This document shows, piece after piece, positions 6,301-22,345 of a stretch of 64,000 nt of DNA. A program made the position numbers and the translations under genes. This DNA is from Roseateles koreensis (GTDB lineage Bacteria; Pseudomonadota; Gammaproteobacteria; Burkholderiales; Burkholderiaceae_C), in assembly GCF_028595305.1 (NCBI RefSeq), contig NZ_JAQQXS010000003.1:1-64000 (forward strand), given 5' to 3'. The notes beneath the pieces are model-generated. The model ran no database searches. It saw only the letters and a program-made list of their open reading frames with translations, and was not told the origin of the DNA. Within the stretch, counting starts at the first letter, position 1, and each line of letters begins with the position of its first letter.

Positions 6301-6322
6301 TCAGCCCCGGCTGATGCCCTTG

Positions 6323-6346
6323 AAAACCCGCTGCGGCGGGTTTTTT
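6323..6346. terminator. Rho-independent terminator after cheZ
   Basis: A 9-bp perfect stem AAAACCCGC / GCGGGTTTT with a TGCG loop, followed by T-run 6341-6346. The A-run on the other arm makes it potentially bidirectional, and it closes the convergent TetR gene too: the TetR stop codon begins at the last T of the run. Confidence 0.9.
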
Positions 6347-7092
6347 CACGTCTTTGGCGCCCGTGGCGTTAGCAATTCGCACAGCAATGCGGCTTGGGCT
6401 TGCCGGGCATCGGCAAAAGACCCGGGCTGCAACTGGGTCCCCTCGTCAGGCGGCTTGGCACCGAGGGGCTGCGCTTCAGTGGCTTGTTGTACCACCGTGT
6501 AGACGATGGGCGCCAGCACCAACCAGGGGTTTGCGCGCAGGCTGGAGTCACGGCAGAGGCCCCGTGCGACTGCTTGTTGCAGCAATTGCGAGATTTGCCC
6601 GGCGAGTGAATTCATGGTGTCGTAGCGCCACCGGGCCACGGCCTCGGGCAGGCGATGGCTTTCGGCAATCAAAAGCCTTGCGGTGGCCACCGCTTCGGGG
6701 TGCGACAGCATCTCGTAGAGCGGGGCGAGCAATTGCCCAACCAGGGTGTCGGCCGTGTCCGCCTGGTTCAACAATGCCGCAACATCCAGTACAGGGATCT
6801 GCATGGACCGTTTGAGCAGGGCCTCGAACACCTCGTCCTTGCTGGAGAAATGGGCATAGAACCCGCTTTTTGAAAGGCCTGCGCGGCGCGCAATGTCGTC
6901 AATGCGGGTGGCCTTGTAGCCCTGGGCTGAAAATTCGTGAAGTGCCGCATCGAGGATCAAGGGCACCCGGGCATCGGGTGTCAGCCGGCGTCGGCGCAGC
7001 CGGGATGGCTCGTCTTGGGCTTGGGCCGTGGGGTGCGTGCTGTTCGCCATGCGCGGTGCCGCCTCTTGAAACGGGCGGTTGTTTGTCGTCAA
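6346..7092 (-). CDS. TetR-family transcriptional regulator
   Basis: The product is up to 248 aa; a second ATG at 7050 would give 234 aa and may be the true start. The HTH spans about residues 45-90, with ILDAALHEFSAQGYKATRID and IARRAGLSKSGFYAHFSSKDE, typical of TetR. The C-terminal ligand domain is not assignable. It is divergent from the efflux operon at 7280, so it most likely represses it and itself through the 188-bp shared region. Its stop codon sits in the cheZ terminator, marking the left edge of the accessory block. Confidence 0.85.
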   Translation of the reverse strand: MTTNNRPFQEAAPRMANSTHPTAQAQDEPSRLRRRRLTPDARVPLILDAALHEFSAQGYKATRIDDIARRAGLSKSGFYAHFSSKDEVFEALLKRSMQIPVLDVAALLNQADTADTLVGQLLAPLYEMLSHPEAVATARLLIAESHRLPEAVARWRYDTMNSLAGQISQLLQQAVARGLCRDSSLRANPWLVLAPIVYTVVQQATEAQPLGAKPPDEGTQLQPGSFADARQAQAALLCELLTPRAPKT

Positions 7093-7205
7093 TGTCTGAA
7101 GTGTAGAAGTGTCGCGGTATTGAATGCACTAAAAACCCGCGGGTCGTTAGTTGTATTGATTTGGATCAAACGCTGGGGCTTTGGCTCTGTCCAGAATCCA
7201 GGATA

Positions 7206-7244
7206 ACCCTGTAGTTAACGCCTTAGCTGAGCGGTAACCAGGGT
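7206..7244. promoter_or_regulatory. Candidate TetR operator dyad upstream of the efflux operon
   Basis: Between the divergent TetR and OMF genes is an extended dyad. The left arm is ACCCTG-TA-GTTAACGC and the right arm is GCGGTAAC-CAGGGT, around a 9-base centre, with one mismatch and a 2-base bulge. It ends 35 bp before the OMF start. This is where an autoregulated repressor site would be expected. The dyad is seen directly; the function is inferred. Confidence 0.45.
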
Positions 7245-7279
7245 GTCCTGATCTGTACCGCGCCCCGGAGTTTCAGCCC

Positions 7280-8770
7280 ATGCCCCTTCAAATTCGACCG
7301 CCTGCAACTGCATTGATGGCAGGCCTTTGCCTGGCATTGGCGGGCTGCACGAGCCTGGCGCCGGCCTATCAGTCGCCAGAGGCGCTAATGCCAGATCGTT
7401 ACGGTGACCAAGCGAACGACGCCAGCTCGCCTGTGCTTGAGGGGGATTGGCGCAGCTTTTTCACCGACCCCGCGCAGCAGGCCTTGATTGAGCGGGCCTT
7501 GGCCAATAACCACGATTTGCGTTTGGCGGTCTTGCGGGTGGGGCAGGCCCAGGCTGCGTATGGCATTCAGCGGGCTGATGGGCTGCCCACGTTGGGCGCG
7601 GGCTTTGACGCCACGCGAGCCCGCGTGCCGGGCGACTTGAACCTCACCGGGCGGCCTTTGCTGGGCAATCAGATTCAGCTGGGCGTGGGTTTCAACAGCT
7701 GGGAGTTGGATTTTTGGGGGCGCGTGCGCAGCCTCAATGAGGCGGCACTGCAGTCTTATCTGGCCACCGACGCCGCGCGCGAGGCGGTGCGGCTGAGTGT
7801 GATTGTCCAAACCGCGAACAGCGACCTTGCGCTGCGTGAGCTGGATGAGCGCCTGGCCCTGGCGCGCCGCACCTCGGCCAGCCGGGAAGAGTCCCTGCGC
7901 ATCTTCAAACGCCGCGAGGCTCTGGGCGCCACCTCCAAGTTGGAGTTGACGCAGGTGGAGTTGCTGGCGCAGCAAGCCAGCGCCTTGGTGGACCAACTCG
8001 CCCAGGCGCGCGAGATGCAGGCGCATGCCTTGGCCTTGCTTGTTGGCGGTGGTGGTGGTGGCGGCGAGGTGGCGCCGGCACTGTCCACTGCGCGGCTGGA
8101 CGACTTGGCGGCGTTTGCCGAGATTCAGCCCGGCCTGCCTTCGGCCTTGCTGGTGCGGCGCCCCGACATCGTGGCGGCTGAACATGGCTTGCGCGCTGCC
8201 CATGCCAATATCGGCGCGGCCAAGGCGAATTTTTTCCCTCGTATCGCCTTGACGGGCTCCTGGGGCACGGCGAGTGCTGAACTTGAAGGCCTGTTCAAGA
8301 CCGGCAGCAATGCCTGGAGTCTGGCGCCCAGCGTGGCTTTGCCGTTGTTCGACAGCGGTCGTCGACAGTCGGCGCTGGACCTTGCCGAGTTGCGACGTGA
8401 CGAGGCGCTTGTGCGGTATGAGCAGACGGTTCAAGCCGCGTTTCGCGATGTGTCCGACGCCTTGTCTGCCCGCCATTGGCTGGCCGTGCAGGTCACGACA
8501 CTTCGCGCCACGCAGTCGTTTCAGCGGGAGCGCGCGCGCCTGGCCAAATTGCGCTACGACAGTGGTGCGGTGCGCTATCTGGAGGTGCTGGACGCTGAAC
8601 GGGAGTTGATGTCGGTTGAACAGCAATTGGTGCAAGCGCGCCGCGCTCAGTTGTCTGCCCAAGCGTCTTTGTATGCCGCCTTGGGCGGGGCGCTCCCGGC
8701 CCCGCGGCCTGAATCTTCAACCGCCGGCCCTGCGCCGAGCCCGGCGGCTTCACCGCTTGTCAAAAACTAA
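7280..8770 (+). CDS. NodT-family outer-membrane efflux lipoprotein
   Basis: The product is 496 aa. The signal peptide ends in the lipobox LAGC (residues 20-23), so it is lipid-anchored. Two TolC-like repeats follow (first around LANNHDLRLAVLRVGQAQAAYG, second around RRPDIVAAEHGLRAAHANIGAAKA), with the NodT hallmarks FFPRIALTGSWG and ALPLFDSGRR. A run of seven glycines (near residue 255) separates the halves. It forms the outer-membrane duct for the HlyD/ABC genes that follow at 4 bp. Confidence 0.9.
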   Translation: MPLQIRPPATALMAGLCLALAGCTSLAPAYQSPEALMPDRYGDQANDASSPVLEGDWRSFFTDPAQQALIERALANNHDLRLAVLRVGQAQAAYGIQRADGLPTLGAGFDATRARVPGDLNLTGRPLLGNQIQLGVGFNSWELDFWGRVRSLNEAALQSYLATDAAREAVRLSVIVQTANSDLALRELDERLALARRTSASREESLRIFKRREALGATSKLELTQVELLAQQASALVDQLAQAREMQAHALALLVGGGGGGGEVAPALSTARLDDLAAFAEIQPGLPSALLVRRPDIVAAEHGLRAAHANIGAAKANFFPRIALTGSWGTASAELEGLFKTGSNAWSLAPSVALPLFDSGRRQSALDLAELRRDEALVRYEQTVQAAFRDVSDALSARHWLAVQVTTLRATQSFQRERARLAKLRYDSGAVRYLEVLDAERELMSVEQQLVQARRAQLSAQASLYAALGGALPAPRPESSTAGPAPSPAASPLVKN

Positions 8771-8773
8771 GAG

Positions 8774-9850
8774 ATGCCCATGAACGCAGGACTCAGAAAA
8801 GTTGCACCGCTGGTGCTGGTATTGGTGCTTGCCGGGCTGGGCTATCTGGCGTGGGCCGGTCGGCGTGACGCGAATGCGGTGCCGGGCCTGGTCAGCGGCA
8901 ATGGCCGTGTCGAGGCCACCGAGGTGGACGTGGCCACCAAGCTGCCGGGGAGGGTAGAGAACATCTTTGCCGCTGAAGGCGACTTTGTCCATGCCGGCCA
9001 GCCTTTGGCGCAGATGCAGGTTGAGAGCCTGCAGGCCCAGCACGACGAGGCCCTGGCACGACAGCAGCAGGCCCTGCATGCGGTGGCCGGCGCCGAGGCG
9101 CAGGTGGCCTTGCGCCAAGCCGACCAGCAGGCCGCGCAGGCCCTGGTGCTGCAGCGCGAGAGCGAGTTGGACGCAGCGCAGCGCCGCTTGGCCCGTTCTG
9201 AAACCCTGGCCGGCGAGGGCGCATCTTCAGGCCAGGAGTTGGACGACGACCGGGCCCGCGTGCGCAGCACCCAAGCCGCCCTTGTCGCCACCCGCGCCCA
9301 AGTCAAGGCGGCCGAAGCCGCCGTGGTGGCCGCCGCCGCCCAGGTGACCGGCGCGAAATCCGCTGTCACCGCCAGTGAAGCGAGCGTGGCCCGGGTGGAC
9401 GTGGACTTGCGTGACAGCGTGCTCAAAGCGCCGCGCGACGGGCGCGTGCAATACCGGGTGGCGCAAGCCGGCGAGGTGCTGGGTGGCGGCGCCAAAGTGC
9501 TGAACCTGGTCGACCTGTCAGACGTGTCCATGACCTTTTTTTTGCCCGAGGCCATGGCAGGCAAAGTGGCGCTGGGCAGCGAGGTGCGCATTATTTTGGA
9601 CGCCGCGCCGCAGTACGTGATTCCGGCCAAAATTTCTTACGTGGCCAGCACGGCGCAGTTCACCCCCAAGACGGTGGAGACGGCCAGCGAGCGGCAAAAA
9701 CTGATGTTCCGCGTCAAGGCGCAGATCGACCGGGACTTGCTGCAGAAGCATTTGCAACAAGTCAAGACCGGCTTGCCCGGCGTGGCCTGGGTGAAGCTTG
9801 ACGCTCAAGCCACTTGGCCGGATCGCCTGAGCGTGAAGGTGGCGCCGTGA
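8774..9850 (+). CDS. HlyD-family membrane fusion protein
   Basis: The product is 358 aa. It has an N-terminal membrane anchor ([17 protein letters not shown]), a first lipoyl half ([20 protein letters not shown]), then a long Ala/Gln-rich coiled-coil hairpin (about residues 80-210), the second lipoyl half ([20 protein letters not shown]), and beta-barrel and membrane-proximal parts. The arrangement resembles E. coli YhiI, the adaptor of the RbbA/YhhJ ABC system. The stop overlaps the next start (GTGA), so the genes are translationally coupled. Confidence 0.9.
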
Positions 9851-12612
9851 CGCCAGAACCGAGCGGTGCGGCGCCGGTCGTTCGCCTGCACCATGTGTTT
9901 CTGCGTTACGCGCGGGCAACCGTGCTGGACGACATCACCCTGGACCTGCCTGCGGGCCGCATGATCGGTCTGATCGGGCCTGACGGTGTGGGCAAGTCCA
10001 GCCTGTTGTCCTTGCTGTCCGGGGCGCGTGCTGTGCAGGAGGGGCGGGTTGAGGCTCTCGGTGGCGACATGGCCAGCAAGGCCCATCGCGATGCGGTGTG
10101 CCCGCGCATTGCCTATATGCCGCAAGGCCTGGGCCGCAATCTGTACCCCACCTTGTCGGTGGAAGAGAACCTGCAGTTTTTTGCCCGGCTGTTTGGCCAT
10201 CACGCGGCGGAGCGGCGGCGGCGCATTGATGAGTTGACTCGCAGCACGGGCCTGCATGAATTTCTCAGTCGCCCGGCGGGAAAGTTGTCGGGTGGCATGA
10301 AGCAGAAGCTGGGCTTGTGCTGCGCCTTGATTCACGACCCCGACTTGCTGATTCTGGACGAACCTACTACCGGGGTGGACCCGTTGGCGCGCGCGCAGTT
10401 CTGGGACCTGATCGCCCGCATTCGCCAGAGCCGCCCTGCGATGAGTGTGCTGGTGGCCACGGCCTATATGGACGAGGCGGAGCGCTTCGACGTGCTGCTG
10501 GCCATGGACGCCGGCAGGGTGTTGGCCACGGGCACGCCGCAGGAGTTGCTGGCTCGCACGGCCACGGCGTCGCTGGAAGAGGCCTTCATTCAACTCTTGC
10601 CTGAGGAAAAACGGCGCGACTATGCGCCGGTGGTGATCCCGCCCTTGCAGGCCGGCGGCGAGGCGGAGATTGCGATTGAAGCCCGCAACCTGAGCATGCA
10701 GTTTGGCCAGTTCAAGGCCGTGAATCAGGTGAACTTTCGTATTCGGCGGGGCGAGATTTTTGGCTTTCTGGGCTCCAATGGTTGCGGCAAGTCAACCACC
10801 ATGAAGATGCTCACAGGCTTGTTGCCGGCAACGGCTGGTGAGGCCAGCTTGTTTGGCAAACCGGTGGATCCCAAGGACATCGACACCCGCAGGCGGGTGG
10901 GCTATATGTCGCAGGCGTTTTCGCTGTACAGCGAGTTGAGCGTGCGGCAAAACCTGGTGCTGCATGCCCAGTTGTTTCATGTGGCCGCGGCGGAAATCCC
11001 CGCGCGGGTCGATGAACTCGCCCAGCGTTTTGGTCTGCAGGAGGTGCTGGACAGCTTGCCCGAGGCCTTGCCCCTGGGCATGCGCCAACGCCTGTCTTTG
11101 GCCGTGGCCATGGCCCACAAGCCGGAGTTGCTGATTCTTGACGAGCCCACCTCGGGGGTCGACCCGATTGCGCGAGATAACTTCTGGCGGCTGTTGATCG
11201 AGCTCTCGCGCCGCGACCGGGTGACGATCTTCATCTCCACCCATTTCATGAACGAAGCCGCCCGCTGCGACCGCATCTCCATGATGCATGCAGGGCAGGT
11301 GCTGGACAGCGACACCCCGGCTGCGTTGGTCGCCAAACGCGGCGCGCAAACGCTGGAGCAGGCCTTCATTGGCTACCTGGTCGAGGCCAGTGGGAGCGGG
11401 GATGCGGGCGTGCCGCCCCCCGAAACGGCGCTAATCCTTGAATCGACCCAAGCGCCGACCCAGGCGCTGACGCGGCTTCGGCATTCACGCTTCAGCTTGC
11501 AGCGGCTGTTCAGCTATATGTGGCGTGAAGCCTTGGAGTTGCGCCGCGACGGAGTGCGCGCCACCATGGCCCTGGGCGGCTCGTTGCTGCTGATGTTTGT
11601 GATCGGCTACGGCATCAGCCTCGACGTGCAGGATTTGCGTTATGCCGTGCTGGACCGCGACCAGACGAGCTTGAGCGAGAACTACGCCTTGAACCTGGCC
11701 GGCTCGCGTTATTTCATCGAGCAGCCCGCGATCAGCGACTACGAGAGCCTGGACCGGCGCATGCGCAGCGGCGAGTTGTCCCTGGCCATCGAGATCCCGC
11801 CCGGTTTTGCGCGTGACGTGCTGCGCCAGCGGCCGGTGCAGATCGGCGTCTGGCTGGACGGCGCCATGCCCACCCGTGCGGAAACGGTGCGCGGCTACGT
11901 GATGGGTATTCACCAGCAATGGCTGATGGCGCAGGCGCGTGAACGGTTGGGCCTGCGCAATTTCGGCAACGTCCGCATCGAGACCCGCTACCGCTACAAC
12001 CCGGATGTGAAGAGCCTGCCGGCCATGGTGCCCGCGGTGATTCCGCTCCTCTTGCTGATGCTGCCGGCCATGCTCACCGCGCTTGCCGTGGTGCGTGAAA
12101 AGGAGATGGGCTCCATCATCAACCTGTATGTGACGCCGGTGACCCGGGCCGAGTTTTTGCTCGGCAAACAGCTGCCCTATGTGGCCTTGGCGATGTTGAA
12201 CTTTTTGCTCATGAGCCTGCTGGCGGTGACGGTGTTTGGAGTGCCCATCACGGGCAGTTATCCCGCTCTGTTGCTAGCGGCGCTGATCTTCAGCGTTAGC
12301 GCCACGGGCATGGGGCTGTTGGGCTCGGCGGTGACGCGCAGTCAGATCGCGGCGATCTTCATCACGGTGCTGGCCACCATCATCCCGGCGGTTCAGTTTG
12401 CCGGGCTGATCAATCCGGTGTCTTCGCTGGAAGGGGTGGGGCGCTTCATTGGCGAGATTTATCCGGTCAGCTATATGTTCAATATCAGCCGCGGGGTGTT
12501 CAGCAAGGGCCTGGGCCTGGCCGACGTGCAGGGTGCGCTGTGGCCCATGGCCTTGTCGGCGCCGGTGATCATTGGCGCCGCCATTGCGCTGTTGAAAAAG
12601 CAGGAGCGTTGA
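9847..12612 (+). CDS. RbbA-like ABC transporter: two ATPase domains fused to an ABC-2 permease
   Basis: The product is 921 aa from GTG 9847, which overlaps the hlyD stop. NBD1 (about 10-235) has GPDGVGKSS, signature [11 protein letters not shown] and [16 protein letters not shown]2 (about 280-510) has [11 protein letters not shown] and [13 protein letters not shown], but its signature is LPLGMRQR in place of LSGGQ. The C-terminal half (about 560-920) is an ABC-2 permease: one helix, a large extracytoplasmic domain, then five helices. The fusion matches E. coli RbbA/YhiH. With OMF, HlyD and the next permease it should make a tripartite exporter of unknown substrate. Confidence 0.9.
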
Positions 12613-12613
12613 G

Positions 12614-13741
12614 ATGCGCCGTCACCTTGCAAACATCTACCGCCTGGGCGTGAAGGAGTTGTGGAGCCTGTGGCGTGACCCCATGATGCTGGCGCTGATC
12701 GTCTACGCCTTCACGGTGGCGATTTATACCGCCGCCACCGCCATGCCGGAGACCCTGCACAAGGCCCCCATCGCCATCGTGGACGAAGACGGCTCGCCCT
12801 TGGCCTCGCGCATTGCCGCCGCCTTCTACCCGCCGCAATTTCTGCCACCGGACATGATCACGCCGGCCGAGATGGACCGGGGCATGGACGCGGGCCGCTA
12901 CACCTTTGTGCTGGACATTCCGCCGAATTTCCAGCGCGACGTGCTGGCCAGGCGCCCCGCTGAAGTCCAGCTCAACGTCGACGCCACTCGCATGAGCCAA
13001 GCCTTCAGCGGCAGCGGTTATGTGCAGCAGATTGTGTCCTCGGAAATCACTGAATTCGTGCAGCACTACCGGGGCAGCAGCACGCCGCCGGTGGACTTGG
13101 CGGTGCGTGCCCGCTTCAACCCCACGCTGGAGCAATTCTGGTTTGGCGGCTTGATGGAGATCATCAACAACGTGACCATGCTGTCCATCATCCTGACCGG
13201 CGCGGCGCTGATCCGTGAGCGCGAGCACGGCACCATCGAGCATCTGTTGGTCATGCCGGTGTCACCGACTGAAATCATGCTGGCCAAAGTGTGGTCGATG
13301 GGCTTGGTGGTGCTGATCGCGGCGGCCATCTCGCTCACCTGGGTGGTGCAGGGCGTGTTGCGAGTACCGGTGGAGGGCTCGGTGGGATTGTTTTTGCTTG
13401 GGGCGGCTTTGCATTTGTTTGCCACCAGTGCCATGGCCATTTTTTTGGCCACGGTGGCGCGCAGCATGCCGCAGTTCGGCCTCTTGATGATCTTGGTGCT
13501 GATCCCGCTGCAGTTGCTCTCTGGCGGCGTGACGCCGCGGGAGAGCATGCCGGCGCTGGTTCAGACCCTGATGCTGGCCGCGCCCACCACGCATTTTGTC
13601 GAACTGGGGCAGGCCATTTTGTACCGCGGTGCGGGGCTGGAGGTGGTGTGGAAACAGTTTCTTGCCTTGATCGGCATCGGCACGGTGATGTTCAGCCTGT
13701 CGCTGGCGCGGTTCAGAAGAACCATCGGCCAGATGGCTTGA
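12614..13741 (+). CDS. ABC-2 type permease (YhhJ-like)
   Basis: The product is 375 aa. One N-terminal helix (DPMMLALIVYAFTVAIYTA) is followed by a roughly 150-residue extracytoplasmic domain (IAIVDEDGSPLASRI onward), then five to six helices containing the ABC-2 motif REREHGTIEHLLVMPVSP. It starts 1 bp after the RbbA-like gene and would form the second half-permease, as YhhJ does beside RbbA. It closes the efflux operon unless phaC, 36 bp downstream, is read through. Confidence 0.9.
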   Translation: MRRHLANIYRLGVKELWSLWRDPMMLALIVYAFTVAIYTAATAMPETLHKAPIAIVDEDGSPLASRIAAAFYPPQFLPPDMITPAEMDRGMDAGRYTFVLDIPPNFQRDVLARRPAEVQLNVDATRMSQAFSGSGYVQQIVSSEITEFVQHYRGSSTPPVDLAVRARFNPTLEQFWFGGLMEIINNVTMLSIILTGAALIREREHGTIEHLLVMPVSPTEIMLAKVWSMGLVVLIAAAISLTWVVQGVLRVPVEGSVGLFLLGAALHLFATSAMAIFLATVARSMPQFGLLMILVLIPLQLLSGGVTPRESMPALVQTLMLAAPTTHFVELGQAILYRGAGLEVVWKQFLALIGIGTVMFSLSLARFRRTIGQMA

Positions 13742-13777
13742 GTGCGGTTTGAAAAATTGGCTTGAAAGGATGAGTTT

Positions 13778-15643
13778 GTGACTGAGTTTTCCGGTACAAA
13801 AAAAGCATCGTCCCGCCGCAAAGCGGCGCCCAGCGTTCCCGCTGAAACCGTGCCGATGATGCCTGTGGAAACGGCCTCGCCGTGCCCGCCGTGTGCACCC
13901 GTCCCCAGCGCCAAGATGTCGGCGCCCGAGGCCTTGGACCGGGCTGTGCACATGCAAATGGGGCGCCTGACGCAAGGCCTTTCACCCGCTGCCCTGTTGG
14001 GGGCCTGGGCCGATTGGGCCGCGCACCTGAGCTTTGCGCCGGGCAAACAAATGACCTTGGCCGCAGTGGCGGCGCGCAAGACGGGCCGTTTGGCCAAAAT
14101 GGCCCTGCGCCCCCCGGAGCCGCAAGGCGAGCCTGGCCAGCCCTGCATCGAGCCGCTGCCTCAAGACAAACGGTTTGCCGCGCCTGAGTGGCAACAGTGG
14201 CCGTTCAACCTGATCTATCAATCGTTCTTGCTGAACCAGCAATGGTGGCACCGCGCCACGACCGGGGTGCATGGTGTCAGCCGCCACCATGAGGAGATGG
14301 TGAGCTTCGCCGCTCGGCAGTGGCTGGACATGGTGTCGCCCTCCAATTTTCTATTCAGCAATCCTGAACTGCTGAGTGAAACGGCCAAAACCGGCGGGGG
14401 CAATTTGTGGCAGGGCGCACGCAATTGGTTTGAAGACGCGTTGAAGTTAAGCACGGGCAAGTCACCGGCCGGCACGGAGCACTTTCGCCCGGGGCATGAG
14501 TTGGCCGTGACGCCGGGCAAGGTGGTGTTTCGCAACCACTTGATCGAGTTGATCCAATATTCGCCGCAGACCGAAACCGTGTTTGCCACGCCGGTGCTGG
14601 TGGTGCCCTCGTGGATCTTGAAGTACTACATCCTCGATCTCTCGCCGTCCAATTCGCTGGTGCGCTATCTGGTGGGCCAGGGGCACACCGTGTTCATGGT
14701 GTCGTGGCGCAATCCGGACGAGAGCGACCGCGGCCTGGACATGGACGACTACCTGCTGGACGGCGTGATGGCCGCCATCAATGCGGTCACTACACTTGTG
14801 CCGGGCAATGCCGTGCAGGGATTGGGTTACTGCCTGGGCGGCACGCTCTTGTCGATTGCGGCGGCCAAGATGGCGCGCGACGGCGACTTGCGCCTCAAGA
14901 CCCTGAGCCTGCTGGCCTCGCAACTTGATTTCAGCGAACCTGGCGATCTCGCCCTGTTCATCGACGAAAGCCAGCTGGCTTATCTCGACGATGTGATGTC
15001 TGCCCAAGGCTATCTGGACGGCAAGCAGATGGGCGGCGCCTTCGCCATGCTCAACAGCCGCGACCTGGTGTTCTCGCGCATGGTGCACGACTACCTGATG
15101 GGCGCCCGCCAGCCGGTGACCGACCTCACGGCCTGGAATGCGGATGCCACCCGCATGCCGTTCCGCCAGCACAGTCACTATCTGCACAGCCTTTATCTCC
15201 AGAATGAGCTGGCACAGGGTAACTACAAGGTGCAGGGGCGGCCGGTGGCGTTGGCGGACATCCGCGTGCCAGTGTTTTGTCTGGGCACCCAGCGGGACAC
15301 TGTCTCACCCTGGCACTCTGTCTACAAGATCAAGTTGCTGACTGACACCCCGCTGACTTTTTGCCTGTGCAGCGGCGGGCACAACGTGGGTGTGGTGTGT
15401 CCGCCCGACGGTGCCGGACGGCGCAGCTATCAAATCGCCAACACCGTGCCGGGTGGGCGTTACGTGGACCCTGACACCTGGCAAGCCACCACGCCGGTGC
15501 AGCAGGGCTCATGGTGGCCCGCCTGGGAGGGCTGGCTGCGTGAGCAGGCCGGCACGCAGGTCACCCCGCCACCGCTGGGTAATGCCGACGCAGGCTACGC
15601 GGTGCTGGACGATGCACCAGGGCGTTATGTACTGATGGCTTGA
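13778..15643 (+). CDS. phaC: Poly(3-hydroxyalkanoate) synthase, class I-like
   Basis: The product is 621 aa from GTG 13778, preceded by AAAGGA; an ATG 8 bases upstream stops after three codons. PHA synthase polymerises (R)-3-hydroxyacyl-CoA on the granule surface. The PHBC_N-type N-terminal segment is followed by the synthase alpha/beta-hydrolase core with lipase-box-like GYCLGG. The triad is Cys352, Asp507 (RDTVSPW) and His535 (SGGHNVG). No phaA, phaB or phasin gene is adjacent, so it is a stand-alone synthase beside an efflux operon. A decayed IS/TonB segment begins 6 bp after its stop. Confidence 0.92.
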   Translation: MTEFSGTKKASSRRKAAPSVPAETVPMMPVETASPCPPCAPVPSAKMSAPEALDRAVHMQMGRLTQGLSPAALLGAWADWAAHLSFAPGKQMTLAAVAARKTGRLAKMALRPPEPQGEPGQPCIEPLPQDKRFAAPEWQQWPFNLIYQSFLLNQQWWHRATTGVHGVSRHHEEMVSFAARQWLDMVSPSNFLFSNPELLSETAKTGGGNLWQGARNWFEDALKLSTGKSPAGTEHFRPGHELAVTPGKVVFRNHLIELIQYSPQTETVFATPVLVVPSWILKYYILDLSPSNSLVRYLVGQGHTVFMVSWRNPDESDRGLDMDDYLLDGVMAAINAVTTLVPGNAVQGLGYCLGGTLLSIAAAKMARDGDLRLKTLSLLASQLDFSEPGDLALFIDESQLAYLDDVMSAQGYLDGKQMGGAFAMLNSRDLVFSRMVHDYLMGARQPVTDLTAWNADATRMPFRQHSHYLHSLYLQNELAQGNYKVQGRPVALADIRVPVFCLGTQRDTVSPWHSVYKIKLLTDTPLTFCLCSGGHNVGVVCPPDGAGRRSYQIANTVPGGRYVDPDTWQATTPVQQGSWWPAWEGWLREQAGTQVTPPPLGNADAGYAVLDDAPGRYVLMA

Positions 15644-15649
15644 GGGGTT

Positions 15650-15877
15650 CTCGGTGCCCCCATACTGCTTGTCCTTGCGGATCACATCGCCTCGCAGCAC
15701 AACTCGCAAGTTGTTAGCAACCGGGAAGCGGTATTGCACACTGGCATTGCCGGTGACTTTTGGCACGTAGGGTGCCCGGTTGCCAACGTCGGAGGGTGTT
15801 GCGTCAAATTGCTTGATCAACTTGCGTTTGCGTTGCGACAGTGCATCGCCCTCGCTCTGAGCAATGGCGTCGGGGAC
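15650..15877 (-). pseudogene. Internal fragment of a TonB-dependent receptor gene
   Basis: Read on the minus strand, the frame gives VPDAIAQSEGDALSQRKRK, then FDATPSDVGNRAPYVPKVTG, NASVQYRFPV and VVLRGDVIRKDKQYGGTEN. The NRAPYVPKVTGNASVQY type of motif is characteristic of late beta-strands of TonB-dependent siderophore or organic-compound receptors. Homology stops at both ends: on the left against phaC, on the right against a transposase remnant. About 76 codons of a gene normally over 650 codons survive, so it is a relic. Confidence 0.65.
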
Positions 15878-16122
15878 CTCCCGGCCTCGTACATCGCTGA
15901 GAACAGCGTGCCCATCTTCGTCAACGCCTCATTGGCCATCACGCGGATCGAGCGCAGCGGATGTTCGGCAGGAACGAAGTCCTCCAACTTGCGCCCCGTG
16001 GATAGGCTCTCGGTGAAGGTATCGGCGCCGCGCATGGGTCTCGTTGAAATCGGGTCGTCAAATTATCGAGGCTGCCGACTGTGCGCCCATCGCGCCGCGA
16101 CGGCATTTCAGCAGCCTGTTAG
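15878..16122 (-). mobile_element. IS5-type insertion sequence remnant (5' end, truncated transposase)
   Basis: A transposase start at 16035 reads MRGADTFTESLSTGRK, LEDFVPAEHPLRSIRV and MANEALTKMGTLFSAMYEAG, the N-terminus typical of IS5-type (DUF772) transposases. It breaks off into the TonB fragment after about 53 codons. Upstream of the start is a leader shared with 22195-22226. The element ends at 16105-16122 with ATTTCAGCAGCCTGTTAG, the reverse complement of the terminus at 22006. This is the left bracket of the catabolic island. Confidence 0.75.
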
Positions 16123-17195
16123 GTGGTGCGGTGGGTGAGAGCATGCTTCCCGGCCTCTGCGTTTGTACGCTCGTACTGCGCTCTGTCATGCCGTGGACTA
16201 CTTCCGGTCCACCGCCGATATGCGGAAGAAAAAGCACTCTGGTTGGCATAGCCGAGCATGAGGCTAATCTGCGCCAATGAAAAGTTCCGCCCTCTGACCC
16301 ATTCGGTCGCCCTCGCATGCCGGTATTCATCCTGGATTTCTGCGAACGATGTGCTGTGTTCCAGTAGCCGCCTGTGCAGCGTGCGAGGGTGTAGATGCAA
16401 AAATTCAGCAATGCTGTCGCGCGTGCAACTGCCTGTAGACAACAGTTGCGCCGTCAACCGCCTGGTGACAACCACCACATCCGATTCTGCCTGCAGGCGT
16501 TCTTGCTGGAGGTATGCTTGTATGATTGATGTATAGGCGCTATCGCGAATCACCGTCTGCGCCTTCAGCAAGTGTGGGTCAAAGAATATGGCATTGCGCG
16601 ACATGCTGAATCGCACCGGGCAGTCAAAAAACTGCTGCGCCAACTTCATTGAGCCAATGGGTGCGTGCTGAACATTCACCTCCCGAATCTTCAGAGCATT
16701 CACCCCTGACGTCAGCGACAGGTATTGGTAGATACGGCACAAACTCAGTTCGACCATTTGCGGGCCACAGCCCGACCTGGGTCTGGGGATGTAGGCGATG
16801 CTCCCCGATTCGTCTGTGTCAACGCTGCCGGGATCTATGTCCAGGTAATAGGCGTTCGAATGAATCGAAATGTTCATCTGAATGGCGTGACAGGCATCTC
16901 CGACGGTGTCGCTGAGGCGGGCGACCAACCCTACCGCACCCAAATACTCAAGATTCTTCAACCTGCCCAATTGAATACCCAAGTCCGGTCGCTTCCACTC
17001 CAACGCGCAGGTTTCTAAAAGCCCCACCGCAGCGGAGTAAGGAATGATGGCCTGGGGGTCATTGAGTACTTCCACCGTCAGCCCGAAACGCGCCAACATC
17101 GGTGCCAGAGGTTGATGAATGGATTGCGCAAATTGCTCTAGCCCGTTCAGCGTCCTGGGATGCGTGAAATAGTCGGTATTGGCTGTCTTTTTCAT
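16119..17195 (-). CDS. AraC-family transcriptional regulator (Arabinose_bd-type N-terminus)
   Basis: The product is 358 aa. The N-terminal 200 residues look like the Arabinose_bd-type ligand domain found in OruR-like regulators. The C-terminal 90 are a double HTH: RDSIAEFLHLHPRTLHRRLL and FSLAQISLMLGYANQSAFSS, followed by AYRRWTGSSPRHDR. The gene is divergent from the amidohydrolase, which suggests it activates the island in response to its substrate. The last codon is TAA at 16119-16121, inside the IS terminus, so the insertion supplied or replaced the original stop; the final few residues may not be native. Confidence 0.88.
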   Translation of the reverse strand: MKKTANTDYFTHPRTLNGLEQFAQSIHQPLAPMLARFGLTVEVLNDPQAIIPYSAAVGLLETCALEWKRPDLGIQLGRLKNLEYLGAVGLVARLSDTVGDACHAIQMNISIHSNAYYLDIDPGSVDTDESGSIAYIPRPRSGCGPQMVELSLCRIYQYLSLTSGVNALKIREVNVQHAPIGSMKLAQQFFDCPVRFSMSRNAIFFDPHLLKAQTVIRDSAYTSIIQAYLQQERLQAESDVVVVTRRLTAQLLSTGSCTRDSIAEFLHLHPRTLHRRLLEHSTSFAEIQDEYRHARATEWVRGRNFSLAQISLMLGYANQSAFSSAYRRWTGSSPRHDRAQYERTNAEAGKHALTHRTT

Positions 17196-17398
17196 GGGAG
17201 GCAGATCACTTCAGGCGGTGCGATTTGCCGGATTATGTCCTCAATTCATAAATTTTTGTCTCGTATTCGTAAGTATTGGGCGCGGCAAATCCATACCATC
17301 GGCCCACAAGTTCAAGGGGGGGGTAGGGCGAGTGTGTCGCCTGTACCTTCAGGACATAAAAAAGATTTCACGAACTATTTCAACAATAGGAGACATTC
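17196..17398 (+). promoter_or_regulatory. Divergent control region of the catabolic island
   Basis: This 203-bp stretch between the AraC-type regulator and the amidohydrolase has no gene. It is AT-richer than its surroundings (for example TCATAAATTTTTGTC at about 17245) and should contain both promoters and the regulator's binding sites. AATAGGAGA at 17384-17392 is the ribosome site for ATG 17399. I could not pick out a clear direct repeat. Confidence 0.45.
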
Positions 17399-19297
17399 AT
17401 GAACTTTTTACGAACCACCGTCGCAAGCGCAGCGGTCATGACTTGCTTTGCGGGTGTAGCACTGGCCCAGAGCGAGCCCGCAACGATCTTTACCGCCAAG
17501 AAGATCATTACGATGGAGCACAGCAACCCCGAGGCGCAAGCGGTGGCGGTTCTCGGCAAGCGCATCGTCAGTGTTGGCTCGTTGGCCCAAGTCAAAGTAG
17601 CACTCGGCGATAAGCCTTTTGTCATGAACGAGACGTTCAAGGATCAGGTCATCATGCCGGGCCTGATTGAACAGCACGTGCACCCCATGCTGGTGTCGCT
17701 AACGCTCAACACGGACGTTATCTCCACGGAAGACTGGGATCTGCCAACCCGCACCTACCCAGCGGCAAAAAATCCTGAGCAGTACATGAAGATGTTGACG
17801 GCGTACTCTGAATCCAAGAGTGATCCGCAGGAATGGCTGTATTCATGGGGTTATCACAAGTTGTGGCATGGCAACTTGACACGCGCCGATCTGGACAAGA
17901 TCAGCACCACGCGCCCCATTGCCGTCATTCACCGGTCAGCGCATGAAGTCATTTTGAACAGTGTGGCCATGAAGACACTGGGCCTGGATGAAAGCGCCAT
18001 GCGTGGGAAGGGCGTTGCCAGTGAGCAATACAACTGGGACGAAGGCCATTGGTGGGAAACCGGTTCATTCGAATTGGTCGTACCCAAGTTGATGAAGTTC
18101 ATGGCTGCTCCAGCCCGCCTCAAGGCGGGCCATGACCTCTTCATCGAAATCAACAAGATGAATGGCGTCACATCCTTTAACGATCCCGGCGTCATCCTGG
18201 CACCAGGATTGATTGGCATGTACAAGGCCATGTTCAATGCGCCGGATGTGCCTTTTTACAGCTCTTTCATCGGTGAAACAAAGCACCAGGTGTACGAAGG
18301 GATGACAGACGCCGAAGCGCTTGCAGATACGGAAAAACTGCACAACAGCCTGCCCGATGGCGGTAAGGCCACTTTCCTGAAGAAGCAGATCAAACTGTAT
18401 GCGGATGGCGCAATCGTGTCGTTACTCATGCAAATGAATGATGGCTATTCAGATGGCCACAAAGGCGAGTGGATCCTGACGCCAGAGCAACTGGACAAAA
18501 TCAGCAAACCCTACTGGGACGCTGGCTACCAGTTGCACGTTCATGCGACGGGTGATGGCGGCGTAGACGCGGTGCTGAACATGGTCGAGAAACGCATGCG
18601 TGAAAACCCACGCGCTGACCACCGGACGGTGCTGGTGCACTTTGCCAACTCCACCGAAGCGCAGATTGACCGCATTGCCCGCCTGGGCGTCATTGTGAGT
18701 GCCAATCCCTATTACCCGGTGGGCTTTGCCGACAAGTTCAGCAAATCTAGCCTGGGCAAGGAACGCGCGGACAACATGGTCCGTGCCCAGTCGGTCATTC
18801 GTCGTGGCCTGCACCTGTCGCTGCATACGGATGCTCCCATTGCACCCATGGGCCCACTGTACCTCGCATGGGCTGCCGTCAATCGGACGACTCTGGATGG
18901 GCGACTCGTGGCACCCGAACAGCGTATCAGCGTGGACGATGCTCTGCGCGCCGTGACGATTGAGGCGGCCTATTCCCTGCGCCAGGAAAATGACTTGGGC
19001 AGCATTGCTGTGGGCAAAATCGCGAACTTCTCGGTACTGGGACAGGACCCCTACAAGGTCAAACCAATGACCATCAAGGACATCCCTATCCGGGCCTCGG
19101 TGTTTGAAGGCCGTGTTTTTCCGATTGCCCAAAGGGACAAGAAGCCCTCTAAAACGGCATCGGCGCCAGCCGCACCCTTTGCCAAATTGATGGCCGCCCT
19201 GGAGCGCAATGGCCCCCATGGCGATATCTGCGACGTCAATAAATTATTGATGGTTGCATTTGCAAAGGCTGAAGCAGAGCGGGCAACCACGCAGTAA
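17399..19297 (+). CDS. Exported metal-dependent amidohydrolase (YtcJ / Amidohydro_3 type)
   Basis: The product is 632 aa. Signal peptide MNFLRTTVASAAVMTCFAGVALA is cleaved after Ala23, so it acts in the periplasm or outside. An N-terminal urease-like beta-sandwich leads to MPGLIEQHVHP with the metal HxH at 93 and 95. Later come YQLHVHATGDGG, RTVLVHFANS and LSLHTDAPIAPMG, which supply further metal and catalytic residues, then the sandwich closing strand IAVGKIANFSVLG. A roughly 50-residue C-terminal extension is extra to the core. The family cleaves amides, carbamates and related bonds; the substrate is unknown. It is the first gene of a likely operon with a transporter and a CoA ligase. Confidence 0.88.
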   Translation: MNFLRTTVASAAVMTCFAGVALAQSEPATIFTAKKIITMEHSNPEAQAVAVLGKRIVSVGSLAQVKVALGDKPFVMNETFKDQVIMPGLIEQHVHPMLVSLTLNTDVISTEDWDLPTRTYPAAKNPEQYMKMLTAYSESKSDPQEWLYSWGYHKLWHGNLTRADLDKISTTRPIAVIHRSAHEVILNSVAMKTLGLDESAMRGKGVASEQYNWDEGHWWETGSFELVVPKLMKFMAAPARLKAGHDLFIEINKMNGVTSFNDPGVILAPGLIGMYKAMFNAPDVPFYSSFIGETKHQVYEGMTDAEALADTEKLHNSLPDGGKATFLKKQIKLYADGAIVSLLMQMNDGYSDGHKGEWILTPEQLDKISKPYWDAGYQLHVHATGDGGVDAVLNMVEKRMRENPRADHRTVLVHFANSTEAQIDRIARLGVIVSANPYYPVGFADKFSKSSLGKERADNMVRAQSVIRRGLHLSLHTDAPIAPMGPLYLAWAAVNRTTLDGRLVAPEQRISVDDALRAVTIEAAYSLRQENDLGSIAVGKIANFSVLGQDPYKVKPMTIKDIPIRASVFEGRVFPIAQRDKKPSKTASAPAAPFAKLMAALERNGPHGDICDVNKLLMVAFAKAEAERATTQ

Positions 19298-19400
19298 GCG
19301 CTGCGACCGCGCCAGTGCTTGCACTGGCGCAACCCAATGCAGGACCTCACCTGACCATTGGGGCGAACTAATACCCAAAATAATTTTACGGAGATACCTC

Positions 19401-20267
19401 ATGCAAGGTGAAATTGTCACGACTGTATTGCTACCAGCCATACTGGCCTTCATCATGTTCTCGCTTGGACTGGGTCTTACGCTGGGCGATTTTCGGCGCA
19501 TCATTGTGCAGCCGCGTGCCCTGCTGGTAGGCGTGTTCTGCCATTTTGTCTTGCTACCAGTGGTGTGCTATCTCATGGTGACCGCCTTTGGCGTCACCGG
19601 CGCGTTTGCCGTAGGTTTCATGATCATTGCCTCGTGCCCCACCGGCAGTACATCGAACATGCTGACCTATCTCGCACGTGGTGACGTGGCGCTTGCCGTC
19701 AGCTTTACCGCAGTGGCCAGCGTCATGACCATGTTCACACTGCCCTTTATTGTGGCGTGGTCGCTCAACACATTCATGGGCACGCAACAGACAGTGCAAG
19801 TACCCGTCTCCATGATGATGGGGCAGATTTTCATGTTGCTCGCTGTGCCGGTGGCAACTGGCATGGTGGTGCGCCATGTCTGGCCCGAAGGAACGAAACG
19901 TCGCGAGCCTGTGGCAACCCGCATTGCGACGGTTCTCTTCATCATCATTCTGGTGCTGGCCATCGCCAAAAACTGGACTCTGCTGCGCGATAACTTCACC
20001 ACGCTGGCACCCTTTGCTGTGGGCTTGAACCTGGTCATGCTGGCGATAGGATTTCTGGTGGCTTGGATAGCGCGCCTGTCGCGCAAACAGTCCGTCACCC
20101 TGGGCATTGAGACGGCCATGCAGAACGCAACATTGGCGCTGGTGATCTCCAGTACCGTGCTCAAGCAGGACGCTATGGCGGTTCCGGGTGCGCTGTATGG
20201 CGTACTGATGTATGCGGGTGGCTTGCTGTTCGCGGCCCTGATGCGCCGCTTTGTGAACAAAGACTGA
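19401..20267 (+). CDS. BASS-family (bile acid:Na+ symporter type) transporter
   Basis: The product is about 288 aa from ATG 19401, which has ACGGAGAT upstream; the frame is open further left but has no membrane logic there. About nine to ten hydrophobic segments are visible. The family's conserved centre is present: FMIIASCPTGSTSNMLTYLARGDVALAVS (residues about 75-103, broken here only by length), where the Pro/Gly/Ser/Asn stretch binds sodium, and GIETAMQNATLALVIS near residue 240. It would import an organic anion with Na+. It begins 103 bp after the amidohydrolase, same strand. Confidence 0.85.
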   Translation: MQGEIVTTVLLPAILAFIMFSLGLGLTLGDFRRIIVQPRALLVGVFCHFVLLPVVCYLMVTAFGVTGAFAVGFMIIASCPTGSTSNMLTYLARGDVALAVSFTAVASVMTMFTLPFIVAWSLNTFMGTQQTVQVPVSMMMGQIFMLLAVPVATGMVVRHVWPEGTKRREPVATRIATVLFIIILVLAIAKNWTLLRDNFTTLAPFAVGLNLVMLAIGFLVAWIARLSRKQSVTLGIETAMQNATLALVISSTVLKQDAMAVPGALYGVLMYAGGLLFAALMRRFVNKD

Positions 20268-20336
20268 GCAAACCAGCTCAACAGCAAGGCCTGCCCATTT
20301 CTGCCATTTTTGACCCTAAACACAGAGAGCACACGC

Positions 20337-21971
20337 ATGAATGCGAGACACTGGACCCGCAGCTACGGCACCATTCCACTAGAGATCAATCCGGATCGCT
20401 ACCCCAGCGTCACCGCGATGATGGATGAGGCGATGGTGCAGTATGCCGACCAAGTGGCCTTCAACTGCTTTGGCAAAACGTTGACCTACGCGCAGGTGGA
20501 CCAACTCTCTGCGGCCTTTTGCGCTTACTTGCAGCATACGGTGGGCATCAAGAAGGGCGACCGTGTGGCCGTCATGCTGCCCAATCTGGCGGCCTTTCCG
20601 CTGGCGCTGCTGGGCATCATCCGTGCTGGTGCGGTGCAAGTGAATGTGAACCCGCTGTACACGCCGCGTGAACTGGAACACCAGCTCACCGACGCGGGTT
20701 GCGATGCCATCGTTATCTTCACCGGTTCGACGCCCACGCTGGGCGAGATCATCGGCAAGACCCACCTCAAGTCCGTGTTGACGGTGGGCCTTGGCGATGG
20801 CTTGGGTGCCCAGCTACCCAGCCCGGCGGTGGACGCACGACTGACGCAGGCGGTGCCCTTCACGACCGCCTTGGCCGAAGGTGCCAAGTTGGAGCGTGTG
20901 CCGGTGAGCCTGACGGGTGCCGACACTTTGTTCCTGCAATACACCGGCGGAACCACGGGACTGTCCAAAGGTGCCACGTTGTCGCATCGCAACCTAGTGG
21001 CCAACACCGAGCAGTTCAAGGCCTTTATGGCTGGCGCCATGCGCCCGGCCGAAGAGGTGGTGGTTACCGCCGTGCCGCTGTACCACATCATGGCTTTGAT
21101 GGGCAATTTCCTGTCCTACTTCTCCATCGGGGCGGAGAACTGGCTGGTGGCCAATCCTCGTGACATGGATGGTTTTGTTGCCACGCTCAAGGCTGCGCGG
21201 CCCAGCGTGTTCGTTGGCGTGAACACGCTCTACCAGGGCCTGACCCTGCACCCTGGGTTGAAAGAGGTTGATTGGTCTCGCCTGCGCTTGAGTGCGGGTG
21301 GCGGTGCGGCCGTGGTGGGGGTGACTTCTGACCGCTGGAAAGCCATTACAGGCAATTTCATCCGCGAAGGCTACGGCCTGTCCGAAACCAGCCCGATACT
21401 GTCCTTCAACCCCTTGTCCATCGATGACTTCTCGGGCTCTACCGGCCTGCCGGCGCCATCCACTGACGTCAAGCTACTGGACGATGATGGCCACGAGGTG
21501 GCCTTGGGAGAGGCCGGCGAAGTGTGCGCCAAGGGCCCCCAAGTGATGAGTGGCTACTGGCGCAAGCCTGAGGCCAATGTCGACGCATTCACGCCCGACG
21601 GCTATTTCAAGACCGGCGATGTGGGCGTGTTCGACGAGCGAGGCTTCTTAAAGATCGTCGACCGCAAGAAGGACATGATCCTGGTGTCGGGCTTTAACGT
21701 ATACCCCAATGATGTGGAAGCTGTGGCCAGCGCCTGCCCGGGAGTGGCCGAATGTGCCTGCATTGGCGTCCCAGATGACAAGACGGGCGAAGCCGTCATG
21801 CTGTACATCGTCAAAACCCCGGAAGCGACCTTGACCGCCGAAGAAGTCAGGGCGTACTGCCGCAGGGAGTTGACCGCTTACAAGGTCCCCAAGCAGGTGG
21901 CGTTTCTCGCTTCACTGCCCAAATCAGCGGTCGGAAAAATATTGCGACGTGATCTGCGCACCGCAGCTTGA
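20337..21971 (+). CDS. Acyl-CoA synthetase (FadD-like AMP-binding enzyme)
   Basis: The product is 544 aa from ATG 20337 (GAGAG ribosome site); an upstream ATG 27 bases earlier is less well placed. ANL superfamily motifs are in order: AMP-binding YTGGTTGLSKGAT at about 205, GYGLSETSP at about 345, the YFKTGDVGVFDERGFLKIVDRKKDMI hinge region, and the C-terminal catalytic Lys in LPKSAVGKILRRDLR. It makes an acyl-CoA from a carboxylic acid, ATP and CoA. The chain type cannot be read from the sequence. It lies last in the island operon, 69 bp after the transporter. Confidence 0.88.
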   Translation: MNARHWTRSYGTIPLEINPDRYPSVTAMMDEAMVQYADQVAFNCFGKTLTYAQVDQLSAAFCAYLQHTVGIKKGDRVAVMLPNLAAFPLALLGIIRAGAVQVNVNPLYTPRELEHQLTDAGCDAIVIFTGSTPTLGEIIGKTHLKSVLTVGLGDGLGAQLPSPAVDARLTQAVPFTTALAEGAKLERVPVSLTGADTLFLQYTGGTTGLSKGATLSHRNLVANTEQFKAFMAGAMRPAEEVVVTAVPLYHIMALMGNFLSYFSIGAENWLVANPRDMDGFVATLKAARPSVFVGVNTLYQGLTLHPGLKEVDWSRLRLSAGGGAAVVGVTSDRWKAITGNFIREGYGLSETSPILSFNPLSIDDFSGSTGLPAPSTDVKLLDDDGHEVALGEAGEVCAKGPQVMSGYWRKPEANVDAFTPDGYFKTGDVGVFDERGFLKIVDRKKDMILVSGFNVYPNDVEAVASACPGVAECACIGVPDDKTGEAVMLYIVKTPEATLTAEEVRAYCRRELTAYKVPKQVAFLASLPKSAVGKILRRDLRTAA

Positions 21972-22005
21972 GTTTTCATTCAGAGGGCGCTACGCGAATT
22001 CCTCA

Positions 22006-22226
22006 CTAACAGGCTGCTGAAATACGGACCCGAATCGCAGCCTCGTTCAGCCCGTCCGGGAGCCGGTACTGATCTTTTCGTCATGCCGGATATCGAGCTC
22101 AGAATCCCTTGATTTCGGGCTGTTTCGCAGGCCTTCACCGCCGATTTCCTTCATTGCGCACCCAGTTGAAGGCGGCCGTGTTCAGCATGAACAGCATGTG
22201 TCTCGTTGAAATCTGGTCGTCAAATT
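22006..22226 (-). mobile_element. Internally deleted IS5-type remnant (right bracket of island)
   Basis: It begins with CTAACAGGCTGCTGAAAT at 22006-22023, the exact inverse of the terminus at 16105-16122. On the minus strand a leader at 22195-22226 matches that of the left remnant (30 of 32 bases) and leads to an ATG at 22197, but what follows (MLFMLNTAAFNWVRNEGNRR, stop at 22135) resembles the C-terminal end of a transposase (consensus like TAAAYNLVR). So the middle of the transposase is gone and both ends are fused. The outer terminus on the right is missing. Confidence 0.7.
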
Positions 22227-22345
22227 TCGACATGCCGGGCTGGAACTGGATTGAACTCACTGTCTTGTGGGGGAGAGGCGCCCGCTCGACGGCGTATCCC
22301 TATCAATAGCGCGGATCACCGCCAATTTCCCGGCCCTTATCGGGC
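22227..22345. other. Short unassigned stretch before the flhB promoter
   Basis: No gene is visible. This 119-bp piece separates the IS remnant from the sigma-28-like site. A hairpin CCCGGCCCTTATCGGG at about 22330-22344 resembles a weak stem. The native upstream sequence of flhB resumes somewhere here. Confidence 0.4.

Follow-up and report, generated by a model that had tools for sequence, protein, structure and literature searches.

Do the genes for a regulator, a hydrolase, a transporter and a ligase that lie together between remnants of insertion sequences (IS) encode one pathway, and if so, for what kind of substrate? The question is raised by the first 64,000 nucleotides of contig NZ_JAQQXS010000003.1 of Roseateles koreensis (assembly GCF_028595305.1; this 64-kb stretch is the window referred to throughout), in which an island of four intact open reading frames (ORFs) spans 16119-21971, with an IS5-family relic on either side. 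The best explanation found, though a tentative one, is that the island is a horizontally assembled mosaic operon between IS5-family ends, the products of which would cleave an amide in the periplasm, import the released acid and convert it to its acyl-CoA.

Four genes between two IS5-family relics

The island genes and the domains assigned to their products by Pfam are as follows.

16119..17195, minus strand: AraC-type regulator, PF12625 (Arabinose_bd) and PF12833 (HTH_18), divergent from the other three genes
17399..19297, plus strand: Amidohydro_3 (PF07969, YtcJ-like) enzyme, with an N-terminal signal-like sequence recognised by eye
19401..20267, plus strand: BASS/SBF transporter (PF01758)
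20337..21971, plus strand: FadD-like acyl-CoA ligase of 544 amino acids, PF00501 and PF13193

All domains claimed for the four proteins pass the Pfam cut-offs. The regulator scores 84.2 bits for PF12625 and 56.3 bits for PF12833, and retains the complete DNA-binding domain (residues 262-339 of 358), while the amidohydrolase and BASS protein score 187.9 and 120.7 bits against gathering cut-offs of 29.7 and 24.3 bits, respectively. None of the four proteins reaches an NCBIfam curated cut-off among the models listed, which for the ligase were the best 25 of 105. Gaps of 103 bases between the amidohydrolase and BASS genes and 69 bases between the BASS and ligase genes give the three an operon-like order, and they may be transcribed together. 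As judged by eye, a purine-rich stretch precedes the start of each island gene.

The island is bordered by CTAACAGGCTGCTGAAAT (18 bp), which occurs exactly twice in the window, at 16105-16122 on the minus strand and at 22006-22023 on the plus strand, both copies facing the island. Shuffled sequences gave an expectation of 0.01 matches with up to three mismatches, and no further match was found in the isolate's own draft genome with one mismatch allowed. The relics were compared with three complete IS5-family copies, located on Cupriavidus, Caballeronia and Paraburkholderia plasmids, which have ends of the form CAGGYYGCTGAARTAC and are flanked on both sides by TTAG, TTAA or CTAG. Given this layout, CTAA is the 4-bp YTAR target site and CAGGCTGCTGAAAT is the 14-bp IS end. 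Hence, the exact inward-facing repeat reported in a preliminary description of this DNA was found, but only its last 14 bases belong to the IS. The features of the two borders are listed below.

15809..16118, minus strand: left IS5-family relic, consisting of the end (16105-16118), a leader, the transposase N-terminus from 16035 and a C-terminal scrap (15809-15877)
16119..16122, no strand: left YTAR target site of 4 bp, TTAG on the plus and CTAA on the minus strand, which holds the araC stop codon
22006..22009, no strand: right YTAR target site of 4 bp, CTAA, identified by comparison with the complete copies
22010..22230, minus strand: right IS5-family relic, consisting of the 14-bp end, a scrap weakly matching the transposase C-terminus and a second leader copy (22194-22230)

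The transposase start in the left relic aligns to residues 1-68 with 68-71% identity to the three complete copies, and the C-terminal scrap, in another frame, matches transposase residues 295-319. The corresponding scrap in the right relic is weak (E 0.02-0.05), and the leader copy there equals the left leader in 35 of 38 aligned columns. As the left leader lies between the IS end and the transposase start, this shared sequence is part of the IS and does not lead into any of the four genes. The inverted ends, YTAR target sites and related transposase place the relics in the IS5 family, and the flanking termini, which had been left for comparison with known IS, match the type of the complete plasmid copies. 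Whereas those copies are complete, both window copies are internally deleted, and neither encodes a working transposase. Two IS copies bracket the cargo with their relic ends facing it, as in a composite transposon, and the two are oriented alike, which is the layout of a direct composite transposon; the outer ends of both have been lost. The earlier account of four genes between two decayed IS5-type pieces was therefore upheld by the intact ORFs, the Pfam domains and the match of the relics to complete copies.

In 500-base steps, the GC content is 0.52-0.63 in the island and 0.60-0.67 in most flanking steps, and the lower GC of the island was counted in favour of horizontal assembly. The GC content at third codon positions (GC3) is 0.65 for araC, 0.68 for the amidohydrolase gene, 0.71 for the BASS gene and 0.76 for the ligase gene, and ranges from 0.68 to 0.82 in 15 other genes of the window. 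By these values, the composition signal is moderate and the ligase gene looks near-native.

The amidohydrolase and its relatives

The amidohydrolase consists of 632 amino acids, of which PF07969 spans residues 83-573 and is followed by 59 residues. Its signal-like N-terminus ends in a VALA-Q type site, recognised by eye, and the enzyme would be exported. A 2026 preprint describes secreted PF07969 metallo-bile-salt hydrolases, predominantly from Desulfovibrionaceae, and gives for one of these, BwBSH1, the metal-binding residues H110, H112, K373, H441, H474 and D583, sulfonate contacts that include Gln381, Asn443 and His544, and an extra C-terminal domain (PMC13081902). The comparison was made with these published residue numbers. 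By motif and spacing, all six metal ligands are retained in the window enzyme, as H93, H95, K332, H382, H414 and D478, and by spacing the catalytic H182 and S180 match His196 and Ser194. As judged by these residues, the enzyme probably works as a two-metal amidase.

The positions of Gln381, Asn443 and His544 are occupied by Val340, Thr384 and Tyr439, respectively (placed by spacing, His544 being the least sure), so that three of the four sulfonate-contact residues are not retained, and no extra C-terminal domain was found by Pfam. For these reasons the window enzyme was not filed as a metallo-bile-salt hydrolase, although it shares with that group, as described, the signal sequence, the Amidohydro_3 domain, all six metal ligands and the catalytic His with a Ser at the second position ahead of it; the known set is also mostly from Desulfovibrionaceae. 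A second likeness, drawn from the published description, is to the YtcJ-like epsilon-lysine acylases SgELA and SmELA, metal-dependent amidohydrolases that act on the amide of N-acyl lysine, SmELA making N-epsilon-lauroyl-lysine (PMC10699109). Unlike the island, the systems in that description include no linked transporter, ligase or regulator.

Relatives of the amidohydrolase are sparse (distribution counts include the own genome unless stated). In 17 other genomes of the genus, the best matches were 40% identical and confined to two genomes. Matches were found in 6 of 399 genomes of the family at E<=1e-80 and, at E<=1e-100, in 2 of 300 genomes of the order and 11 of 398 of the phylum. The closest relatives, 52-55% identical, are in another family (f78), in 9 of 229 genomes at E<=1e-140 (own genome not included), and the amidohydrolases of the f78 loci have no island-type BASS or ligase gene nearby. 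Viral contigs gave no relative and phages only three short matches, and a search of solved structures yielded two distant, uncharacterised hydrolases at E<=0.001.

A tree was built from 38 of 44 extracted sequences, the f78 loci not being part of it and six sequences of 480 amino acids or less being dropped (L007, L008, L009, L017 and the second matches in L031 and L032). The window enzyme was placed in a set of seven (support 100/99) on a long end branch (0.77), together with G882, two genomes labelled as of the same class and three actinobacterial sequences from metagenome-assembled genomes (MAGs). The mostly signal-bearing clade to which it belongs includes 27 rows, the window among them.

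Nine of the 38 rows carry, by spacing, equivalents of Ser194, His196, Gln381, Asn443 and His544 (L010, L011, L013, L014, L015 and L016, all from same-genus genomes, and L054, L063 and L056:6523), and in five of the nine the extracted frame has neither the first nor the second metal ligand. Either enzymes of this kind occur more widely, or the residues lack specificity for bile salts.

Chosen neighbours were scanned in 37 amidohydrolase loci, and the following counts are thus minimum values. A dehydrogenase with DAO, FAO_M and GCV_T domains, which we take to be of the sarcosine/dimethylglycine type, is encoded near the amidohydrolase in at least three loci. It is adjacent and on the same strand in L052 (8706-13201) and L053 (8886-13338) and a few genes away in L048 (199-7347), which suggests the release of an N-methylated amine. 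In at least two loci from actinobacterial MAGs (L019, 8012-11833; L020, 2490-6277), the gene directly before the amidohydrolase encodes an Xsc-like thiamine pyrophosphate (TPP) enzyme closest to sulfoacetaldehyde acetyltransferase, albeit below cut-off. Many of the loci had no informative neighbour. An MTTB-family methyltransferase is also encoded nearby in L019. A possible link to sulfonates via a histidinol-dehydrogenase gene near the G882 relative was set aside, as its context looks like that of an ordinary hisD.

Partial sets in other genomes and the surrounding insert

Linkage was examined around the amidohydrolase (37 loci), ligase (17 loci) and BASS (13 loci) genes, two of the ligase loci being among the 37. 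The loci are 3.8 to 22 kb long, some ended by contig ends. Counts were taken from tblastn and profile searches because longest-ORF calling produced numerous false genes in these GC-rich loci; the profiles were partly built from loci that were then counted (L026, L044, L056, L060, L102, L110, L136, L141 and L147), which inflates the scores.

Partial sets recur in three other lineages. Sulfitobacter and Pukyongiella plasmids (Rhodobacterales) carry a ligase (58% identical) with an amidohydrolase (37-39%), in the company of genes for a TRAP transporter, a beta-lactamase-type serine hydrolase, a DMT transporter, TetR and a CobW-like GTPase, to which the Pukyongiella locus adds MaoC, PhaC-like and PhaZ-like genes. 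In G029, two AraC genes, a BASS gene (49%), a ligase gene (70%) and PhaC-like and PhaZ-like genes lie within ~8 kb. The third, G1027, was selected by its amidohydrolase (38%) alone, and there an AraC gene of the same domain type is divergent from the amidohydrolase gene, and the locus also encodes a second amidohydrolase (27%) that has a signal-like start and, convergently, an SBF protein (28%). Of the 17 ligase loci, 9 further encode an AraC-type regulator of this kind, as do 11 of the 13 BASS loci (profiles partly from L060, L102, L110 and L141). Relatives of the island regulator in the plasmids and fetched loci searched are only 22-31% identical. The preliminary description had held that genes unlinked in all relatives would speak against a module; partial sets do occur, and in unrelated genomes.

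The ligase, which meets the AMP-binding domains, falls below the cut-offs of both the FadD model NF006523 (635.1 against 884 bits) and, by far, the steroid-24-oyl-CoA synthetase model (243.2 against 750). Its relatives were found in 13 of 299 genomes of the family at E<=1e-190, those in the other 12 genomes being 61-72% identical. PhaC-like and PhaZ-like genes occur together in 7 of 19 ligase loci (L027, L101, L102, L105, L106, L108 and L110, of which L105 and L106 are from one genome) and MaoC genes in 6 of 19, the query proteins having been taken from L102 and L110. The L102 PhaZ-like protein, the only one tested, passes the polyhydroxyalkanoate (PHA) depolymerase model TIGR02240 (297.9 against 250.6), and the PhaC-like protein of this locus is best matched by class II synthases, below cut-off (688.5 against 855.4). 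In Pseudomonas putida, the proteins described as associated with PHA granules include an acyl-CoA synthetase together with PhaC and PhaZ (PMC2959000). The neighbours of the ligase clade thus point to medium-chain or 3-hydroxy acids. These AraC/ligase/PhaZ-like/MaoC/PhaC-like clusters resemble the island in the ligase (64-71%) and, in several, the AraC gene, but those of the family have no amidohydrolase, and a BASS gene only in G029. One such cluster is in the own genome (G000:C1; L110, 5043-11538), where AraC, PhaZ-like, MaoC and PhaC-like genes accompany another ligase gene of this clade (64-65%).

Relatives of the BASS protein were found in 15 of 299 genomes of the family at E<=1e-65, 12 of the others being 67-72% identical and the remaining two 66% over part of the length and 49%. 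Of the 13 BASS loci, 11 carry genes for a flavin adenine dinucleotide (FAD) dehydrogenase and a TPP enzyme, 6 a flavin mononucleotide (FMN) 2-hydroxyacid dehydrogenase gene, and 3 a GMC gene together with an MdlD-like aldehyde dehydrogenase gene, pointing to hydroxylated or aromatic acids. The AraC domain type and the BASS protein are common to these loci and the island, whereas none of the 13 includes an amidohydrolase or an island-clade ligase. The arrangement AraC/FAD dehydrogenase/BASS/(FMN dehydrogenase)/TPP enzyme is conserved across L136-L148 and is mandelate-pathway-like. The island BASS protein scores 181.5 bits against the TIGR00841 curated cut-off of 326.3. For it, 'bile acid:sodium symporter' is just the name of a family; most loci of its closest relatives have, as described, the FAD dehydrogenase and TPP enzyme genes instead. 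Taken together, the acyl-side and amine-side neighbour genes suggest an acyl-amine substrate, the acid half of which may be medium-chain or hydroxylated/aromatic.

The foreign block is larger than first reported and extends beyond the IS borders, from ~6354 to 22311. The additional features are given here.

6354..22311, no strand: whole 15.96-kb insert in the cheZ-flhB interval, which six relatives of the genus lack at this site
15638..15817, minus strand: TonB-dependent receptor, C-terminal fragment directly beside the left relic

The flhB gene is present in 15 of 18 genomes of the genus, own included, and six of the other 14 were fetched (L114-L119). Nucleotide homology (blastn) to these stops at 6300-6358 and resumes at 22308-22336; the own motB (4264-5226) lies upstream of the insert. 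None of the six carries the 15.96-kb insert, nor were BASS, ligase or AraC genes of the island types found in these loci. In four of the six, the matched flanks are 39-96 bases apart, and in the other two 707 bases (L118, G005) and 1587 bases (L117, G003) intervene, so the cheZ-flhB site is itself variable and looks prone to insertion. Besides the island, the insert contains an ABC-transporter block (by eye), a PHA synthase gene (PhaC_N, PHBC_N), the TonB-receptor fragment and IS relics. The neighbouring phaC was rejected as an island member, being outside the IS border and host-like in GC, with a product that shares 29-32% identity with the PhaC-like proteins encoded in ligase clusters. The TonB fragment has no Pfam match and matched a single record, a TonB-dependent receptor of a Novosphingobium plasmid (46.7% over 60 amino acids, E 2e-11) that is encoded among hydantoinase and racemase genes.

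A proposed mosaic operon and its alternatives

In the proposed operon, the divergently encoded AraC-type activator would sense a ligand and switch on the amidohydrolase, BASS and ligase genes. The exported amidohydrolase would use its two-metal centre to cut, in the periplasm, the amide of a compound of the N-acyl amine or N-acyl amino-acid type, the BASS protein would import the freed carboxylate with Na+, and the ligase would make the acyl-CoA for beta-oxidation or PHA, the three proteins thereby acting in sequence. The catabolic module of the preliminary description keeps the support of the IS5 borders, the somewhat foreign composition, the order of regulator, hydrolase, transporter and ligase genes and the partial sets, but the full set was seen once.

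Several observations weigh against this interpretation. None of the loci examined (37 for the amidohydrolase, 17 for the ligase and 13 for BASS) yielded a second full araC-amidohydrolase-BASS-ligase set, so the search for the set in other genomes that had been proposed returned only partial ones; 35 of the 37 amidohydrolase loci are without an island-clade ligase and 36 without a BASS gene. The Rhodobacterales amidohydrolases of the ligase clusters belong to another branch of the tree. The nearest relatives of the amidohydrolase are in f78, and those of the BASS protein and ligase (~72%) in the own family, and the set may for this reason not be co-adapted. Promoter-like sites (1 against 3.3 expected) and terminator-like sites (6 against 6.8) are not above chance, and two flanking genes have a GC3 of 0.68, as low as the amidohydrolase gene. 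An AlphaFold2 model of the amidohydrolase, from a four-row alignment, had a mean predicted local distance difference test score of 38.7. Finally, PF07969 also holds deaminases and deformylases (PMC13081902).

This chemical breadth among the characterised members described there leaves room for a less probable but possible explanation, in which the genes are a real co-regulated module of other chemistry, acting on a carbamate, formamide, lactone, deaminable ring or xenobiotic, with the transporter and ligase handling the product or taking part in detoxification. The FAD dehydrogenase, TPP, FMN and MdlD-like neighbours of BASS genes, which point to hydroxy or aromatic acids, would suit it; the ligase neighbours, however, suggest fatty or 3-hydroxy fatty acids, and the His that polarises the amide carbonyl is retained.

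It is unlikely that the genes share no pathway and were caught by chance between two IS insertions, to be now neutral or decaying. The four intact frames, operon-like order and short gaps argue against chance capture, as do the partial sets in three other lineages, even though the parts differ in nearest relatives and GC, both IS relics are internally deleted, the adjoining TonB receptor is a fragment and the full set is single. A module for conjugated bile acids or other steroid-acid conjugates, with a metallo-bile-salt-hydrolase-like enzyme, a bile-acid importer and a steroid-acyl-CoA ligase, is very improbable: secreted PF07969 bile salt hydrolases have been described (PMC13081902), Ser180 and His182 match by spacing and the transporter has the SBF family name, but the replaced sulfonate contacts, which already weaken the bile-acid idea of the preliminary description, the missing C-terminal domain and the low steroid-24-oyl-CoA synthetase and TIGR00841 scores all speak against it.

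The mosaic amide operon therefore remains the preferred, tentative reading. On these data, the distribution of its parts marks the four-gene set as a mosaic, and the island joins known parts in a new way without being a new kind of system; no paper on this combination was found in the open-access subset of the literature, where searches that also covered related substrates gave one paper, on Ntn-type acylases. A wider generalisation is speculative and unlikely. It holds that the mostly signal-bearing, as yet uncharacterised Amidohydro_3 clade hydrolyses N-acyl amines or N-acylated amino acids within the periplasm, and that bacteria have repeatedly assembled uptake modules around it, drawing on AraC regulators, BASS-type importers, acyl-CoA ligases for the acid half, or sarcosine/dimethylglycine-type or Xsc-like enzymes for the amine half. 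Among the versions seen here, the island would then be the most complete on the acid side, and an environmental counterpart to gut metallo-bile-salt hydrolases.

If the operon works as proposed, an uncharacterised branch of a large metalloenzyme family would be tied to a complete route of cutting outside the cytoplasm, import and activation, and the island would provide a directly testable gene set for the turnover of lipid-like amides such as surfactants, N-acyl amino acids and conjugated acids. The island further illustrates how a route of this kind may be assembled from separate gene sources between insertion sequences.

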